Shown here piece by piece: positions 5,349 to 37,451 of a stretch of 40,546 nucleotides of DNA. The notes under the pieces are model-generated. The model was given only the letters and a program-made list of their open reading frames with translations, was not told where the DNA came from and did not search any database. Where the stretch lies: the IMG/VR virus record IMGVR_UViG_3300040806_003768, positions 1 to 40,546 of that record; one strand, 5' to 3'. This DNA is from a virus. The number at the start of each line of letters is the position of its first letter. Position 1 is the first letter of the stretch. The translations under genes were made by a program, and so were the position numbers.

Positions 5349-6401
5349 ATGCGATCAACAGTAATTAAATGCGAGTATGTTTGGCTCGATGGAAATGAAA
5401 CACAGTCACTTAGAAGCAAGACTAGAGTTCTAACTCTTAGGTCAGAGGATGAAAATTGGAAGCTGTCTCTTGCGGACATTCCGACTTGGACCTTTGATGG
5501 ATCAAGCACAAATCAAGCTTCTACTGAAAATTCAGAATTAGTCATTCGCCCCGTCTTTGCTTGCGTTGATTCAAATAGAGAGAATGGAGTAATCGTACTC
5601 TGCGATGTTCTAAATCCAGATATGACTCCTCACCAATCAAATCATCGAGCAAGACTTGTTGATACCATGATAGAATTCGGAAAGTCCGACCCATTTATTG
5701 GGTTTGAGCAGGAATATTTCTTTACATCAGGCTGCAATATTCTAGGCTGGGAGGATGATGCGGATAACATGAGGCCACAAGGTCCGTACTATTGTGGCGT
5801 TGGAGTCGGATCTGTTGCAGGAAGAAATGTTGCAGAGCTTCACCTAACATCTTGTATTAACTCTGGTTTATCAATCGTAGGTGTTAATGCGGAAGTTGCG
5901 CTAGGACAGTGGGAGTATCAGGTTGGCGGACCTAATGTAAATGCTGTTGCAGCCTGTGATCACCTTTGGGTATCGAGATTTATTCTTCAAAGAATAGCTG
6001 AGTTGCACGATATTGGAGTAACCTTTGATCCCAAGCCTGTTGATGGTGATTGGAACGGAAGTGGTCTTCATGCCAATTTCTCAACAAAAGCTATGAGAGA
6101 AAGTGGTGGTATCAATATGATTCGCAAAGCATGTGAAGCTTTGGGTTCAGATGCTGCCCTGATTATGGCAAGGGAATCTTACGGAGAGGGTCTAGATAGA
6201 AGGCTTACTGGAAGACATGAAACTTGCAGCATAGATGAATTCAAAGTTGGAGTTGGCGACCGTAGTGCTTCTGTTCGGATTCCAGTGGAAGTTTCTCGTG
6301 TCGGATCTGGATACTTTGAAGATAGAAGGCCCAATTCAAATGCTGATCCATATAGGGTATTAAATACTATCCTAAGGTCTGTGTCCCATCTTGGTGAATG
6401 A
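5349..6401 (+). CDS. glnII: Glutamine synthetase, type II (eukaryote-like)
   Basis: Condenses ammonia and glutamate into glutamine using ATP. The sequence is a GSII, the short class common in eukaryotes and found in some bacteria: CEYVWLDGN at 8-16, WTFDGSST at 47-54, GFEQEY at 118-123 (metal ligands), NGSG at 236-239, RLTGRHET at 285-292, RIP at 310-312 and FEDRRP at 323-328. It is complete at 350 aa and lacks the tyrosine-adenylylation region of GSI. The gene follows the exonuclease after 3 nt. It could feed the glutamine-dependent AsnB upstream and reuse ammonia released by a GMP reductase. A phage-borne GSII is unusual. Confidence 0.93.
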   Translation: MRSTVIKCEYVWLDGNETQSLRSKTRVLTLRSEDENWKLSLADIPTWTFDGSSTNQASTENSELVIRPVFACVDSNRENGVIVLCDVLNPDMTPHQSNHRARLVDTMIEFGKSDPFIGFEQEYFFTSGCNILGWEDDADNMRPQGPYYCGVGVGSVAGRNVAELHLTSCINSGLSIVGVNAEVALGQWEYQVGGPNVNAVAACDHLWVSRFILQRIAELHDIGVTFDPKPVDGDWNGSGLHANFSTKAMRESGGINMIRKACEALGSDAALIMARESYGEGLDRRLTGRHETCSIDEFKVGVGDRSASVRIPVEVSRVGSGYFEDRRPNSNADPYRVLNTILRSVSHLGE

Positions 6402-9180: not shown

Positions 9181-10782
9181 ATGTCAAAAGAAGTTTTATT
9201 AGGAGTTAAGGCGAGAGAGTCTCTTCAGGAGGGCTTAGATATTCTTGCCAATGCAGTAAAGGCTACGCTTGGGCCTAGAGGTAGGCACGCCGCTATTGAA
9301 AGAGGCTATGGACCTCCTCTTGTAACCAAAGATGGAGTAACTGTAGCTAGAGCAATCGATCTTAATGATCGGTTGAAAAATATGGGTGCAGCGTTGGTTA
9401 AGAGTGTTGCAAGCTCAACAAACTCTCTTGCAGGTGATGGAACCACTACTGCAACTGTTTTGGCGCAAGCAATCTATACAGAAGGTGCCTCTATGGTTGC
9501 CGCTGGTCATAATCCGGTCTTGATTAAGAGGGGTATAGATATGGCTGTAGATGCTGTCGTCTCTCATCTTAGAGAGGTATCTGTAAGAATAACATCAGAA
9601 GAAATGCTAAACAGCATTGCTGTTATCTCTGCAAATAACGATCCAAAGCTCGGAGCATTAATTGCTGAAGTTGTCTCGGCAGTTGGTGAGGATGGGCTTA
9701 TTTCTGTTGAAGAATCTGCTGGAGCAGAAACATCTGTTACTTATACAGACGGCCTCTCTTTTGAGAGAGGGTATGTAACTCCTGCTTTTTCAACAAACAT
9801 TGACAGACTATCTGTGGAGTATGATAATCCTTTTATTCTTTTTTATGACGGAAGGATATCGAAGACATCAGATCTAATGCCGGTCATGAGTTCTGTAGCA
9901 GAGACGGGAAGACCTTTGTTGGTTGTCGCTCAAACTGTTGAAAACGAAGCACTTCAAACTATGATTTTAAATAATACAAAAGGTTCTTTGAAATCTTGTG
10001 CAGTTAGAGCTCCTGGCTTTGGTGATATAAGAAGGGATATGCTTGGAGATTTAGCCGCCCTCTGTGGAGGTAGGGTGCTTAATAATGATACAGATGGTCA
10101 ACTTAAGTCTGTTGAGGTATCTGATTTGGGTCAGGCAAGAAGGGTTCTTGTAACAAGGGATACAACTTCTATTATAGATGGAATGGGAGAGCAAGATAAT
10201 GTTGATCAAAGAGTTGAATCTATTCGTTCTAGATTAAATGGGTCTTTAGAGACATTTGAAATTGCCGCACTAAAACAAAGGCTATCTGCATTGGTTGGTT
10301 CCGTTGCCCTAATTAGAGTTGGAGGCATTTCTGATACGGAGGTTAGAGAAAAGAAGGACCGGGTTGAAGATGCCATTAACGCCGTTAAGGCTGCAATAGA
10401 AGAGGGCGTTGTTCCGGGCGGAGGCTCAGCCCTTCTGAGATGCGTAAATGTTTTGTCAGACCTCAGGTCTGTCGATGGCTTGACAACAGAGGAGATTGTT
10501 GGGATTAATGTAGTGGCCAGAGCAATAAGGGCTCCATTCTCTCAGATTCTAACAAATGCCGGAGAAAACTATCACCTTCATATGGAAAGCATTATCAATT
10601 CTGATAATACTAGACTTGGTTACAATGCTCTTCATGGCAGAATGGAAGAGGATATGGTTGCGGCAGGCATTATTGATCCTCTCAAGGTAGTTAGGACTGG
10701 TCTTGAAAATGCAGCATCGAGTTCAGGAACCCTTTTAACTACCGAGGTTGCAATATTTAATGCAGAAAACCCCTCTTCATAG
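9181..10782 (+). CDS. groEL: GroEL-like chaperonin
   Basis: An ATP-driven group I chaperonin subunit that folds cytoplasmic proteins. Visible motifs are ATLGPRGRHAAI near residue 28, VTKDGVTVARAIDL at 48-61, the nucleotide-binding GDGTTTATVL at 85-94, and EEGVVPGGGSALLR in the C-terminal equatorial part. At 533 aa it is slightly shorter than E. coli GroEL and lacks the GGM-rich tail. ATG 9181 has AGGAG 6 nt upstream and its own promoter. No GroES or phage co-chaperonin is seen in the window. Known phage chaperonins (for example from phage EL) can act without a co-chaperonin, and this one may too. Confidence 0.95.
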   Translation: MSKEVLLGVKARESLQEGLDILANAVKATLGPRGRHAAIERGYGPPLVTKDGVTVARAIDLNDRLKNMGAALVKSVASSTNSLAGDGTTTATVLAQAIYTEGASMVAAGHNPVLIKRGIDMAVDAVVSHLREVSVRITSEEMLNSIAVISANNDPKLGALIAEVVSAVGEDGLISVEESAGAETSVTYTDGLSFERGYVTPAFSTNIDRLSVEYDNPFILFYDGRISKTSDLMPVMSSVAETGRPLLVVAQTVENEALQTMILNNTKGSLKSCAVRAPGFGDIRRDMLGDLAALCGGRVLNNDTDGQLKSVEVSDLGQARRVLVTRDTTSIIDGMGEQDNVDQRVESIRSRLNGSLETFEIAALKQRLSALVGSVALIRVGGISDTEVREKKDRVEDAINAVKAAIEEGVVPGGGSALLRCVNVLSDLRSVDGLTTEEIVGINVVARAIRAPFSQILTNAGENYHLHMESIINSDNTRLGYNALHGRMEEDMVAAGIIDPLKVVRTGLENAASSSGTLLTTEVAIFNAENPSS

Positions 10783-18537: not shown

Positions 18538-19389
18538 TTAGAAGGGAAGATAGATTTCATCTATCATCAGTAGATAGTCTTCTATATCTCTGCTCTTGCA
18601 AAACTCTATAGCCGCAGCTTTTTTTGCAAGACATGTCTTTTCGTATTTCTCAAAATAATAAGAGCTTTTTATTTCTATAAGCCAGACTTTATTGTCTTTA
18701 AATATTTTGAAATCAACAAAGTATTTTTTGCAAGCACCATCTAAAGTGTAGTCTATGCAGGGTCCGTTTTTAATTTTTACATTATTGTCTTCGCATAATT
18801 TAACGAATGATCTTTCATAGGACCCCTGAACATTTATTGTGTTTCCAAATATTGTTTCATACTTTTTTACAGAGCAACGCCCACCCCCGTTTTTCAGGGC
18901 CTTCTCTACAAGGTGGGGTATGTGCATGGCTTGTTCTGACCCAAATCTTTGAATCATTGTTTTGTTTCTTTTTTTCATGATCTCTTTGTTTTGAAGACCG
19001 TATTCAACTCCATAATTTTTTATTAAAGTTTTCTTTTTTTTCTCTTTGATAACCTCACTTTTAGATGGATTATCAACTCCATACTTCTTTAAAAGAGTTT
19101 GCTTTGTCTTTTCTTTGCAGGCATCAGTTTGAAAGTAATTAGAGAACCCGGTACTCTCAAAGAGTCTAATGTTTCTCAGCTTATTAGAGCATGCTCTAGA
19201 ACAACATTCATAATAACCTGCTTTTATCGTTTTGAACCTAGTCTTGTTATCACATAGTTTGCAAAGACCTTCTTTGGATCTCCTTAAGTATTGGTCATAA
19301 TATTCCTTGCCGTTAAGATCATGGCGCTTAAGGTGTGTTCCAGAGTAATTTTCGTTGCATTTATAGTTACAAATTTTACAAACAAACAT
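18538..19389 (-). CDS. Homing-type endonuclease with zinc-finger N-terminus and DNA-binding repeats
   Basis: Predicted free-standing mobile endonuclease. The N-terminal CKICNYKC...THLKRH and CKLCDNKT...CCSRACSNK look like zinc fingers. Two or three copies of a NUMOD-like motif follow (TLLKKYGVDNPSKSEVIKEK; TLIKNYGVEYGLQNKEIMKK). The C-terminal part has SYERSF, FVDFKI and WLIEIKSSY, matching an E...D...ExK core of the Vsr/EDxHD/PD-(D/E)xK type. The 283-aa gene is inserted on the minus strand exactly between two plus-strand genes; AGGGG precedes its ATG. It borders purA, whose frame is interrupted 125 nt away. This matches the T4 mobA/gene 60 layout. Confidence 0.8.
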   Translation of the reverse strand: MFVCKICNYKCNENYSGTHLKRHDLNGKEYYDQYLRRSKEGLCKLCDNKTRFKTIKAGYYECCSRACSNKLRNIRLFESTGFSNYFQTDACKEKTKQTLLKKYGVDNPSKSEVIKEKKKKTLIKNYGVEYGLQNKEIMKKRNKTMIQRFGSEQAMHIPHLVEKALKNGGGRCSVKKYETIFGNTINVQGSYERSFVKLCEDNNVKIKNGPCIDYTLDGACKKYFVDFKIFKDNKVWLIEIKSSYYFEKYEKTCLAKKAAAIEFCKSRDIEDYLLMIDEIYLPF

Positions 19390-19466
19390 TTTTGGCCCCT
19401 ACTAACTGCCTTGGGATTAGTAGAAAAGCCTCAACTCCCCAAGGGATTCTTAAAAGGAGGTGTTTT
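19390..19466. promoter_or_regulatory. Divergent intergenic region with a 7-bp inverted repeat
   Basis: CTACTAA/TTAGTAG (19399-19405/19417-19423) lies between the endonuclease and purA start codons. No clear -35/-10 pair was found. It ends in the strong Shine-Dalgarno AAAGGAGGT of purA at 19453-19461. Confidence 0.35.
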
Positions 19467-20505
19467 ATGTCCAAGCTAATCAAGTTCGCAGATATTGTAG
19501 TTGGTTTAGCTTGGGGTTAACTACCCCGGCGATGAAGCAAAAGGAAAAGTTACCGCTCAGTTGGCAGCAACAAGAGCCTCTACGGGAGGCCCTCTTTATG
19601 ATTATGTAGCCCGCTGGGCCGGCGGAAACAATGCTGGACACACCGTATGGGTAGATGGAGAGTCTTTTAAAACTCATTTGGTTCCATCTGGAGTTTTTTA
19701 TGGCGTGAAATCAATCGTTGGTCCCGGTTGTGTTTTGCATCCAGAATCTTTCAATAAAGAGTTGGAGTATCTTTCTGATAATGGATTTGATCCTTCTTTG
19801 GTAAAGGTTTCTCCAAGATGCCATATCGTAACTGATGAACATATCCAGTTTGACAAAGAAAGGTTGGCTGGAAAGCTTGGAACAACGAGTCGTGGAATTG
19901 CCCCATCTTATTCTGCAAAGTTTGCAAGAGAAGGTCTTTTGGCAAAGGACATTCTTCCCCAATCTCTTTTGTGGGACGAAAAGCTATCTGGGAATATCCT
20001 TTGCGAAGGAGCGCAGGGCATTTGGCTTGATGTTGATTATGGCCTTTACCCTTATGTAACCTCGTCTACAACGCTGCCCTATGCAGCTTGTAGTATCGGG
20101 TTTCCTCCTCAAAAGATTCGTCGTATTTGGGGTGCAGCAAAGATTTACGACACAAGGTCTGGAGAAGATCCTAGGTTTCCCGAATCTCTTTTTAAAAACC
20201 CCCTTCTCAAAGGTCTTGCTGATTTGGGGTCGGAGTTTGGCGTTACAACTGGAAGGCGCAGAAAGGTTAACTGGCTAAATCTAAATATGCTTATTTCTGC
20301 AATCAACCTTTCCGGCACAACAAACCTTGTTGTTAGCAAATGCGATGTAATGAGGGAGCTTGGTCAGTTCAGGCTCTTATACAATGATGAGCTTCTCTTT
20401 TTCTCTGATCTAGAAGGAATGTGTGAATTCATTACTTCAAAGATTACGAGTCAGTGCGAAATGATTTCAGAGATTAGATATTCAAGCTCTCCTAGGGAGA
20501 TTTAA
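19467..20505 (+). CDS. purA: Adenylosuccinate synthetase with discontinuous frame (probable ribosome bypass)
   Basis: Joins IMP and aspartate using GTP to give adenylosuccinate. ATG 19467 has AAAGGAGGT upstream. Codons 1-17 read MSKLIKFADIVVGLAWG, then TAA (19518). The remaining 324 codons continue in the +1 frame from GAT 19531. The rest is a conserved, undamaged PurA: GGNNAGHTV, KLGTTSRGIAPSY, EGAQGIWLDVDYG, YPYVTSSTT, FGVTTGRRRKVNWLN. Skipping 19518-19530 gives 341 aa with WGDEAKGK, the family phosphate loop, and a length like short archaeal PurA. A plain +1 frameshift would give WGNYPGDEAKGK (345 aa). The loop's Asp is kept, so this is not a PurZ-type diaminopurine enzyme. The gene abuts a DHH gene. 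Confidence 0.85.
19513..19530 (+). other. Candidate translational bypass site in purA (take-off, hairpin, landing)
   Basis: GGT (19515-19517) is the last in-frame codon before TAA (19518-19520), and GGC (19528-19530) is the proposed landing codon; one tRNA-Gly(GCC) reads both. GGGGT (19513-19517) pairs perfectly with ACCCC (19523-19527) around the loop TAACT. The hairpin therefore holds the take-off codon and ends exactly where landing begins. Decoding resumes at GAT 19531, restoring W-G-D-E. No Shine-Dalgarno-like sequence lies inside the gap. Alternative: +1 shift at GGT-TAA. Confidence 0.6.
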
Positions 20506-23290: not shown

Positions 23291-23879
23291 CTTGTTCTTG
23301 ATAGCCTCAGCTTCTGAGGCTATAGCAGAGCCTTATAAGTCAATATATCTGAAAGATATAAGCACAAAAACTGTGCTAGAAGAGTTGTTGCACGGGGAGA
23401 GTAGAGGTATAAAGATTTCTGTTTCTTACGAATTAGGATCTATTATTTCTCAAGAATCTTTTCCCGCCAACTTTGTTGCAAGACAAGTTCTTCTTTCAGA
23501 AAAGCATATTAGAAGATTTAATTCCCAAATGGGTTTGCGATCTTCTGATTGTAGAAGTTCTTATGATGTAAATATTTATGTTATTTCAAATGAAAAAATG
23601 TGGGAAGAAGATCGCTTTTACTCATATCGGCTAAGAACAAATCTTGGATCAGAAAGAAGAATCTATGGATTTTATGATTCGACTTTGGAGATTCCAAGAA
23701 ACAATGTTTTGATAATAACAAATGTTGATGAAAGAGAGAATCTTCTTACCTTACAGCATGAATTGGCACATTATTGGTTTGATAGGCTTTGTGTAAAATC
23801 AAATTATAAAGAAAGCTCAGAAATATATGCTTTAACATATGAGGAATATGTAATTAGAAATTATGAAGACTTTAGATAG
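23259..23879 (+). CDS. Secreted zinc-metallopeptidase-like protein, 206 aa
   Basis: The N-terminus MLKKILGVATSLFLIASASE is a signal peptide, with likely cleavage after AIA (residue 23). The mature protein ends with LLTLQHELAHYWFDRLCVK, an HExxH zinc site, so it should act in the periplasm or outside the cell. Two Cys could form a disulfide. ATG 23259 has GGAG 7 nt upstream and overlaps the preceding gene. Possibly used for host envelope change or release, though the substrate is unknown. Confidence 0.78.
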   Translation: MLKKILGVATSLFLIASASEAIAEPYKSIYLKDISTKTVLEELLHGESRGIKISVSYELGSIISQESFPANFVARQVLLSEKHIRRFNSQMGLRSSDCRSSYDVNIYVISNEKMWEEDRFYSYRLRTNLGSERRIYGFYDSTLEIPRNNVLIITNVDERENLLTLQHELAHYWFDRLCVKSNYKESSEIYALTYEEYVIRNYEDFR

Positions 23880-24942
23880 ATCAAATTTATTAAGTTCAGA
23901 AAATTTTCCACCACCTTCATTTGATGATGTGTTGATGGTTCCAAGCTATACAGAAGTTATGTCTAGGCTAGATCCAGAGATTCGATCTAAAATGTCAAAA
24001 GACTATGAACTTTCTGTTCCAATTATATCTTCGCCAATGGATACTGTCACGGAATCTCATATGGCTATTTCCCTAGGAAGCAGAGGCGGTCTTGGCGTTA
24101 TTCATCGCTTTATGTCTACATCACAGCAAATGAGACATATAAGGGCGGTTGTTGACTCTGGGCTAAGCCCTGCTTTTGCAATAGGCGTTGGATCCTCAGA
24201 AAGAGATCGTTTTTCTTCTATATTTTCTGAGTTTGGCTCAAGCTTGGGGTGGGTATCTATTGATGTTGCAAATGGTCACTCTCTTTATATGAAAGACATG
24301 CTTTCTTTTGTGAAAGATACCGTTGGCGACTCGGTTAATATTATGGCTGGAAATGTTGCGACAGGAGAGGGGTATTTGTTTCTCTCTGAAAATGGAGCAG
24401 ATTCAGTTAGAGTGGGCATCGGTGGCGGAAGTATTTGCAAGACAAGAATTATGACGGGTTTTGGGGTTCCGACTCTAGCTTCCGTTTTAGATTGTCACGG
24501 ATACAGAGAGCAGCATAGTGCCTCTGCTTCAATTATTGCAGATGGAGGTATAAGGTATCCAGCTGATTTGGTTAAGTCTATTGCGGCTGGTGCCGACGCT
24601 GTTATGGCAGGTAGAATATTTGCAGGAACTCTGGAGTCTCCAGGTGAAACCATTATGGTAAACGGAACTCAGAGCAAAGTTTATCGAGGGATGGCCTCAA
24701 AGGAGGTTCAAGAAGATAGAAAGGGCGGTTTACGCCCCGGCACCTGCTCAGAAGGAGTTTCGACACACATTGCTCTAAAGGGAAAGGCTCACTATATTTT
24801 AGATGAGTTTGCCGGAGGTCTTAGATCTGCTCTAACTTATGCTGGAGCAAGGAATCTCGCTGAATTTAGAGCCTGTGCTAAATTTATAAGAATGTCTTCA
24901 TCTTCTTTGGATGAATCACATGCTTTTGGAACAAGAGTTTAA
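23863..24942 (+). CDS. IMP dehydrogenase / GMP reductase family enzyme, CBS-less
   Basis: A (beta/alpha)8 barrel acting on guanine/inosine monophosphates. [12 protein letters not shown] (19-30), [10 protein letters not shown] (55-64) and GGLGVIHRF (75-83) mark the fold; [11 protein letters not shown] has the catalytic Cys at about 192. ADGGIR and [12 protein letters not shown] follow. It lacks the CBS pair of bacterial GuaB. The flap is DRKGG rather than the IMPDH Arg-Tyr dyad, and [12 protein letters not shown] plus KFIRM fit GMP reductase, while the C-terminal ESHAFG recalls IMPDH. I lean toward GMP reductase, which would give IMP and ammonia. PurA upstream uses IMP. Confidence 0.85.
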
Positions 24943-35468: not shown

Positions 35469-35670
35469 TGGGTTAATGGAGATAATTTCTCATTTAAAAG
35501 ATCCGAATGATAAGTGGAATATACTTGTTATAAGAAGAGATCTTAAGCTTGCGGTTGAGGAGATATGTCTGGCAAGAGGCTTGCCGACTCCTCGTTATTA
35601 TTCAGAAGATCCAGTTGACACCGAAGTTCGCGAGGATTATCCTGTCCTAAGAATTTTGGAGGGTAAATGA
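35458..35670 (+). CDS. Hypothetical protein, 70 aa
   Basis: ATG 35458 overlaps the thioesterase stop. Helical N-terminus, then EDPVDTEVREDYPVLRI. Not recognised. TAA overlaps the thyX start (TAAATGA-type junction). Confidence 0.6.
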   Translation: MTNDGLMEIISHLKDPNDKWNILVIRRDLKLAVEEICLARGLPTPRYYSEDPVDTEVREDYPVLRILEGK

Positions 35671-37451
35671 ATACGAATAATACTGTAGAGTTACTTGGCA
35701 CCTATGGAAGCGACGAGACTCACGCTCTTTCTGCGTGGACTAGCACAAGCCGTCAGCTTGGCCCAAAGAAGCGAGCAAGAATAGGCAAGCTTTTAAACAT
35801 GCTTGCGAACGAAGGGCATCATACGCCATTTGAAAAGTCTTCGCTTCACTTTCTCGTTACCACAGATATAGCAACGCACATACACCTTCTTAAGCATCGA
35901 GTAGGAGTAAGTTGCGTTACTGGTGATACCGAAATTTACATTCCAAACCCCGGCGGTGGAGTAAAGAAGATGATGATAAAAGATCTCTATGACCAATATG
36001 AGAACGGGATCTTATCAAAGTCTAAAAATGGAAAGGAGTATAGGCGCCAATATGGCAGACCGGTTCCATGCAGGACGAAAGAAGATGGTTCAAATCTTGT
36101 AAAGAAAGGCTATATATCAAAGGTCTTTTATAACGGTAAAAGAGATGTTTATAAGTTTACCACAAAGTCCGGAAGAACAATCTCGTCTACATTAGATCAC
36201 AAGTTTTACTCTCTGGATGGCAACTTTGTAGAGATTGGAGAGTATCTTGGAGTAGAAGTTTTTGGATCCAAAGTGACTATATCTAACTTGGATAATATGG
36301 TTGCTGTAAACGGGATAAACATAAATGTATCTGGAAAGCCATATACCTTTAGAGATTGGTGGGTAAAGTATGAGGGTAAATACACCAGGAAAGAAGTCGC
36401 CAAAATAAGTGGATATAAATATGAGCTTATTAAAAAATGGGGATATATACATAATATAATCTTTCTAAAAGATATTAATAAGGACTTTAAGCCTGGAAGC
36501 GTTCCGTGGAACAAAGGAAAATATGGATACAGGCTGAATCGCCAAAAAAATGGTATAAATCCAAATATAAATCCAGATTTAGATCACAAAATCTGGAGGG
36601 CTACAGTTGGAAACTGGACAAGAGAGCAGCTGCCCTCCCTTATGAATAAATTTAATTATGTTTGCCAGGCCCAGATTGATCCAGAGGGGTGTTCCAGAGA
36701 TTTTGTGTGCCACCATGTTATTCCAGTCTCAGTAGATAGAGCTAGAGCGACAGATTATAATAATCTTGCTCTTGTATGTTCTGGTTGCCACAAAAAAATT
36801 CATTCCTCTCGTGCATCAGAGAAAGCTTTTGCCCAAAGTTTTTTGAAGGAGAATCTTAAAGAGGTCTTTGAAAAAAGAAGGCCGAGAAAAGGACGGCGTT
36901 TAGCATTTGACTATGAGCAAATAGTTAGTGTAGAGTATCTTGGAGTGCAGGATGTTTATGACCTAGAAGTAGAGGGAACCCATAACTATGTTGCAAATGG
37001 CTTTCTAATACACAATTGTAATGCTGAATCAGCACGATATAAAGAGTTTAAGATAGATAAGTATTATCTTCCTGTTGACTGGCCCGAATCTGAACGAGAC
37101 GACCTAGAGGCCTTTATAAAGCAGGCCTATGAAAATTATCACGGTTGTATTGCCAGACTTGAAGATGCGGGGTATACTCGCAAGCGAGCAAAAGAAAGTG
37201 CAAGACTTTATCTTCCCTATGGAATTCAGATAACTTGCGATATCATGTTTAACTGGCGTTCTTTTGCTCATTTTCAAAAGTTAAGAAATGATGAACACGC
37301 CCAGCTGGAAGTGCGTCAGGTTGCTCAAGAAATGCTTAGACTCGTAGAGGAGCAGGGAGATTTTCCTATGACTATTCACGCTATGAGAGAGTGCGGTATG
37401 CTTCCGCCAAATCTTGGAGAGAGTGAATGTACGAATACAGAGCTTATGTAA
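35667..37451 (+). CDS. thyX: Thymidylate synthase ThyX interrupted by an intein
   Basis: FAD-dependent thymidylate synthase that makes dTMP from dUMP. The exteins are residues 1-82 and 451-594 and join to give KHRVGVSCNAESARY, the ThyX dUMP-binding motif (RHRxxSxNxxSxRY type). The intein (residues 83-450) starts with Cys and ends His-Asn before Cys+1. After removal the enzyme is about 226 aa, normal for ThyX. The gene follows a 70-aa protein by overlap and overlaps the nuclease gene by 25 nt. Confidence 0.93.
   Translation: MNTNNTVELLGTYGSDETHALSAWTSTSRQLGPKKRARIGKLLNMLANEGHHTPFEKSSLHFLVTTDIATHIHLLKHRVGVSCVTGDTEIYIPNPGGGVKKMMIKDLYDQYENGILSKSKNGKEYRRQYGRPVPCRTKEDGSNLVKKGYISKVFYNGKRDVYKFTTKSGRTISSTLDHKFYSLDGNFVEIGEYLGVEVFGSKVTISNLDNMVAVNGININVSGKPYTFRDWWVKYEGKYTRKEVAKISGYKYELIKKWGYIHNIIFLKDINKDFKPGSVPWNKGKYGYRLNRQKNGINPNINPDLDHKIWRATVGNWTREQLPSLMNKFNYVCQAQIDPEGCSRDFVCHHVIPVSVDRARATDYNNLALVCSGCHKKIHSSRASEKAFAQSFLKENLKEVFEKRRPRKGRRLAFDYEQIVSVEYLGVQDVYDLEVEGTHNYVANGFLIHNCNAESARYKEFKIDKYYLPVDWPESERDDLEAFIKQAYENYHGCIARLEDAGYTRKRAKESARLYLPYGIQITCDIMFNWRSFAHFQKLRNDEHAQLEVRQVAQEMLRLVEEQGDFPMTIHAMRECGMLPPNLGESECTNTELM
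35913..37016 (+). mobile_element. Intein with HNH homing endonuclease, in thyX
   Basis: 368 residues. Block A CVTGDTEIYI, block B FTTKSGRTISSTLDHKFYS (TxxH), block F VYDLEVEGTHNYVANGF, block G LIHN with Cys+1. The central HNH domain is VCHHVIPVS...NNLALVCSGCHKKIHS. It sits in the conserved dUMP-binding motif, a usual intein insertion point, and looks able to splice. Confidence 0.93.

Follow-up and report, generated by a model that had tools for sequence, protein, structure and literature searches.

Programmed translational bypassing is known from gene 60 of phage T4, where translation itself skips a gap in the mRNA (PMC3014915, PMC11194080). In the T4 record, which served here as our control, gene 60 has 46 codons up to the take-off codon GGA, followed by UAG, a 50-nt gap and a landing GGA, with the take-off hairpin GGAUAGCC-UUCG-GGCUAUC. 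Moreover, gene 60 depends on a nascent-peptide signal, the homing endonuclease gene mobA lies near it, and its relatives are contiguous (PMC3014915). A 2010 review called natural bypassing apparently unique to gene 60 among the phages it surveyed (PMC3014915), though a 2016 review said that shorter counterparts had long been presumed to exist (PMC5009743). Candidates for short bypasses include the Streptomyces phage Hau3 terminase (also with W-G before the site), a 29-nt hop in a Prevotella loescheii adhesin, and synthetic stop-hops, which are single, unconfirmed or artificial cases of short hops in bacterial systems (PMC5009743). Alternatively, the mitochondrial byps of Magnusiomyces capitatus are many short inserts bypassed in genes, with imperfect take-off and landing matches reported, but these are described as context-independent and tied to an unused codon (PMC5009743, PMC8211752). 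Here, we describe a phage purA gene broken by a stop codon and a small predicted hairpin that the ribosome apparently jumps over, found in viruses with bacterial-type genes and standard stop codons, and compared as a series across lineages.

The interrupted purA gene and its relatives

The window analysed is a linear IMG/VR contig of 40,546 bases (IMGVR_UViG_3300040806_003768). The features of the locus are as follows.

18538-19389, minus strand: homing-endonuclease-like gene immediately upstream of purA
19399-19444: pseudoknot-like 5' UTR upstream of purA, with no Rfam match
19454-19461, plus strand: Shine-Dalgarno AAGGAGGT of purA
19467-19517, plus strand: first purA reading frame, 17 codons from ATG 19467, MSKLIKFADIVVGLAWG, ending TGG GGT (19512-19517) with the take-off codon GGT at 19515-19517
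19513-19527, plus strand: predicted take-off hairpin GGGGT-TAACT-ACCCC, which can extend to the flanking GCT and GGC codons
19518-19530, plus strand: 13-nt gap TAACTACCCCGGC, inferred to be bypassed, with the stop TAA at 19518-19520 and the landing codon GGC at 19528-19530
19531-20505, plus strand: second purA reading frame, DEAKGK... to the TAA at 20503-20505

The first-pass annotation had described a gene that stops after W-G and resumes out of frame beyond a hairpin, and direct reading of the sequence confirmed this observation. The frame opening at GGC-GAT (19528-19533) is PurA, with a Pfam Adenylsucc_synt match (3.5e-73, 247 bits), a GDExKGK P-loop and relatives in the PDB; the NCBIfam equivalog cut-offs are not reached, though the PurZ model scores much lower. 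The 5-bp pairing of GGGGT with ACCCC is as had been noted, and the predicted fold has an energy of -10.6 kcal/mol (z = -2.1).

Related phages had been named beforehand as a place where the interruption should be sought, and among 22 close viral relatives we found six further distinct sequences with a stop-and-hairpin insert at exactly this P-loop position. These were L002 (TAACTACCCCGGC, 13 nt), L011 and L023 (TAAACCCCAGGC, 12 nt), L008 and L022 (TAAAACCCCAGT, 12 nt), L006 (30 nt), L009 and L010 (32 nt), and L020 (29 nt), where L numbers denote loci in related contigs. In the seven sequences the gaps (13, 13, 12, 12, 30, 32, and 29 nt; phases 1, 1, 0, 0, 0, 2, and 2) always follow GGT with TAA or TGA, and a hop over the gap restores WG-DEAKGK in all. 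This recurrence at the same site, with different inserts and all three frames, is more than chance. Several loci are 100% identical pairs from other assemblies and are not independent, whereas L008 and L022 differ at 16 bases plus 5 gaps over 6.5 kb but share the insert. The remaining relatives read WGDEAKGK, or a close variant, without interruption. A wider set of 80 viral hits, which overlaps the first, added no case, a pattern scan of viral contigs for any insert of 3-33 nt returned only the same set, and a scan of the GTDB genome set for stop-containing inserts found no interrupted cellular purA. Intact and interrupted alleles interleave in the tree, which needs about four gains or losses, and each related contig examined has one purA. 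A search for cultured relatives at the DNA level returned none for purA.

Both flanks of the gap are conserved. Downstream, dN is 0.19-0.32 with dS of 1.8 or saturated, which indicates purifying selection. Upstream, the short peptide is conserved, and its Gly-Leu codons are GGT TTA in 7 of 7 interrupted genes but in 1 of 12 contiguous ones (Fisher 1.6e-4, uncorrected for shared ancestry), which points to an RNA-level constraint; folding predicts that this 5' arm pairs into or beyond the gap. In every case the take-off codon lies in a predicted hairpin formed with the gap (z-scores of -2.1 to -6.1). Pair counting on the mixed alignment showed no two-sided covariation, because the 5' arm is coding and nearly invariant and the two element types do not align in their gaps. 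A search of Rfam gave no hit.

Here, the comparison with T4 gene 60 proved closer than could be known from the window alone. The longer inserts (GGT-UGA-CC-UUCG-GG-UCA) have the architecture of the gene 60 take-off hairpin (GGA-UAG-CC-UUCG-GG-CUA), reading GGUUGACC-UUCG-GGUCAA in L006 and L009 and GGUUGACCC-UUCG-GGGUUAA in L020, with the same order of Gly codon, stop, stem and UUCG loop. The window element is a short version that lacks the UUCG loop, which is present in three purA elements and absent from the short ones. The purA gaps are 12-32 nt rather than 50. The landing codon is GGC or GGT in four of the seven purA sequences, including the window, and AGC or AGT, which are imperfect matches, in three, a split that speaks neither for nor against a requirement for matched codons. 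In contrast to gene 60, only 14-17 residues precede take-off, leaving no equivalent of its nascent-peptide signal about 30 residues upstream, and the peptide shows no obvious motif absent from contiguous relatives.

An all-against-all search of the window phage and related contigs for other interrupted genes found none besides purA, the hits being antisense shadows, homopolymer indels and a release-factor +1 site. The latter is in a short RF1-like gene of the related phages G004 and G008 (L171 and L179, minus strand), which appears to need a +1 shift at CTT-TAG-C, resembling RF2 autoregulation but with UAG, while the G007 copy (L196) is contiguous. Moreover, a small gene in G003 and G008 (L163 and L178) appears to be -1 shifted at GGAAAAAG, though G003 and G008 also show homopolymer indels against each other elsewhere, and L211 (minus strand) has an in-frame stop in G009 where the otherwise matching G006 protein has Glu. 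The closest relative (phage G001, L149-L160) carries a predicted tmRNA gene and seven tRNAs. Elsewhere in the window, ThyX is interrupted by an intein (35667-37451; NCBIfam intein N- and C-terminal regions), and there are host-like metabolic and chaperone genes (78-1739, 5349-6401, 9181-10782, 23863-24942): asparagine synthase, GlnII glutamine synthetase, GroEL, and IMPDH/GMP reductase family.

Similar elements in other phage genes and their neighbours

Exact scans for a Gly codon, a stop, CC-UUCG-GG and the complement of the stop gave 184 matches, T4 included. Most were set aside as terminators or chance, but a set joins into known proteins, with GGT followed by TAG or TGA in the new genes (junctions are marked by a slash). 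A metallophosphoesterase, SDTHFG/HNNII (or HYNII), has a 22-nt gap in six motif hits, and a search of its relatives showed eight interrupted copies beside contiguous ones, with dN well below dS and a patchy distribution in which intact and interrupted alleles again interleave. A further phosphoesterase, L322 (DLHLG/HTNII), has a 26-nt gap, L347, a heptosyltransferase family 9 protein (GAFG/DNII), has 21 nt, L251, a topoisomerase (DLDG/IHIRG), has 45 nt at the DxDG motif that gene 60 also uses, and L339 is a T4-like gene 60 with 51 nt. The joined phosphoesterase product aligns unbroken over the junction with proteins of more than a thousand phage records, as does the topoisomerase product with Vibrio and Campylobacter phage enzymes. 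No cultured relatives were found at the DNA level for the phosphoesterase or the topoisomerase, or by protein for the heptosyltransferase. The phosphoesterase motif is also interrupted without the UUCG hairpin near locus position 2000 in L463, L479 and L456, by CTT-TGA-AGG-CTT, CAT-TAG-CAT and a 7-nt insert after CAT beside an upstream inverted repeat, though TAG reassignment in L479 is not excluded.

The gene directly upstream of the window purA, on the other strand, matches PHROG 3339 homing endonuclease (1.3e-16) and Pfam DUF7487 (1e-22), with a weak TnsA-like N match. It is absent at this place in the relatives examined, including beside the other interrupted purA genes, and a search of viral contigs found no close relative of it. 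Genes with NUMOD3 or shared PHROG 23051 matches precede the phosphoesterase in L322, L354 and L367, a GIY-YIG/NUMOD3 gene precedes L463, an unclassified gene precedes L251, and mobA lies near gene 60. In contrast, contiguous relatives showed none in the stretch inspected, as judged by reading the upstream ORFs and not by a profile scan of each. A rough Fisher value of 0.008 for this difference counts T4 and L251, treats loci as independent and uses hand-tallied numbers (7 of 20 against 0 of 20), so it is only indicative. Whether the endonuclease cuts only the uninterrupted allele was not assayed.

Bypassing weighed against other readings

The first-pass annotation had proposed a bypass from GGT to GGC with no added residue, and this interpretation is supported, as it is the only reading that works for every relative. 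In this model, the ribosome translates 17 codons to GGU, and with UAA in the A site and the gap folding into a hairpin that contains the take-off codon, peptidyl-tRNA-Gly leaves GGU, the 10 nt before the landing codon pass unread, the tRNA re-pairs at GGC, and decoding resumes at GAU, giving an intact P-loop WGDEAKGK and full-length PurA. What our sequence analysis shows is the interruption and its recurrence, the frames, the conserved flanks, the predicted hairpins, the take-off architecture shared with gene 60, and the same element in other genes, whereas the hop itself (and thus that the gap is untranslated), its efficiency, the tRNA involved and the origin of the element are inferred, since no translation product, ribosome profile, raw reads or host were examined. 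We hold bypassing of the gene 60 kind, in a minimal (12-13 nt) form, with high confidence; it is strongly supported by sequence and unproven by experiment. As proposed for T4 mobA/gene 60, the element probably arose as part of a homing-endonuclease cassette or as an allele resistant to one, in which case the insert would destroy a cleavage site in a conserved motif while bypassing keeps the gene working.

Other readings of the interruption appear very unlikely. A +1 shift at GGT-TAA would give WGNYPGDEAKGK, and this frame is indeed open through the gap in the window and L002, but it would insert four residues (WGNYPGDE) in the GTP-binding loop and would not restore the frame in relatives with 12-, 29-, 30- and 32-nt gaps. 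An NYPG-like insert in PurA homologues had been singled out in advance as a sign against bypassing, and no contiguous PurA read here has one. These gap lengths also rule out readthrough as a common explanation, and no single frameshift or indel accounts for the series. While the window is a metagenomic contig without reads, recurrence in separate contigs with structured, different inserts rules out a one-base error, and purifying selection downstream in the sole purA copy weighs against an assembly error or a decaying pseudogene. Removal of the insert from RNA (as a mini-intron) or DNA would fit the exact boundaries and precisely rejoining flanks, though 12-32 nt is too small for any described self-splicing intron, and the shared architecture is that of gene 60. 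A leader peptide followed by reinitiation could use a TTG at 19561 that opens the remaining frame, but the residues before it (DEAKGK.T..LA) are invariant or nearly so in interrupted genes, and the truncated PurA would lack the P-loop.

A different matter is whether a real bypass serves regulation of PurA, for example by release-factor or nucleotide level, which rivals the proposed origin and not the hop. In its favour, the pseudoknot-like 5' UTR precedes three interrupted purA sequences, being shared by the window with L002 and L008/L022 with a compensatory change (CTACTAA/TTAGTAG against CTATTAA/TTAATAG), and G004 and G008 carry the apparently shifted release-factor gene. Even so, we consider this unlikely, as the patchy presence and absence, the same hairpin in unrelated genes, and the homing-type neighbours fit a mobile or resistance origin better.

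A probable wider class of short bypass elements

What could not be seen in the first-pass annotation is that the element lies in a clade with interrupted and intact alleles, recurs in other genes, and sits here beside a homing-endonuclease-like gene. In the open-access papers searched, subscription journals being mostly outside this coverage, we found no description of purA bypass or of other new phage bypass genes. Taken further, it is probable, though resting on fewer loci and on an exact-motif search that will miss variants, that phages carry a widespread class of short, hairpin-directed bypass elements, spread or selected by homing endonucleases, at conserved Gly codons in active-site motifs of at least four protein families (topoisomerase II, PurA, metallophosphoesterase, and heptosyltransferase), with gaps down to 12 nt and, in purA and others with early take-off, no room for a gene 60-like nascent-peptide signal. 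A reading trick long tied to one gene of T4 thus looks like a wider class. The comparative series, with gaps from 12 to 51 nt, shows which parts are conserved (Gly codon, stop, and hairpin on the take-off codon) and which look dispensable (long nascent peptide and long gap). Moreover, it offers compact test constructs, supports the homing-cassette origin, and means that gene finders are probably splitting or discarding intact phage genes.
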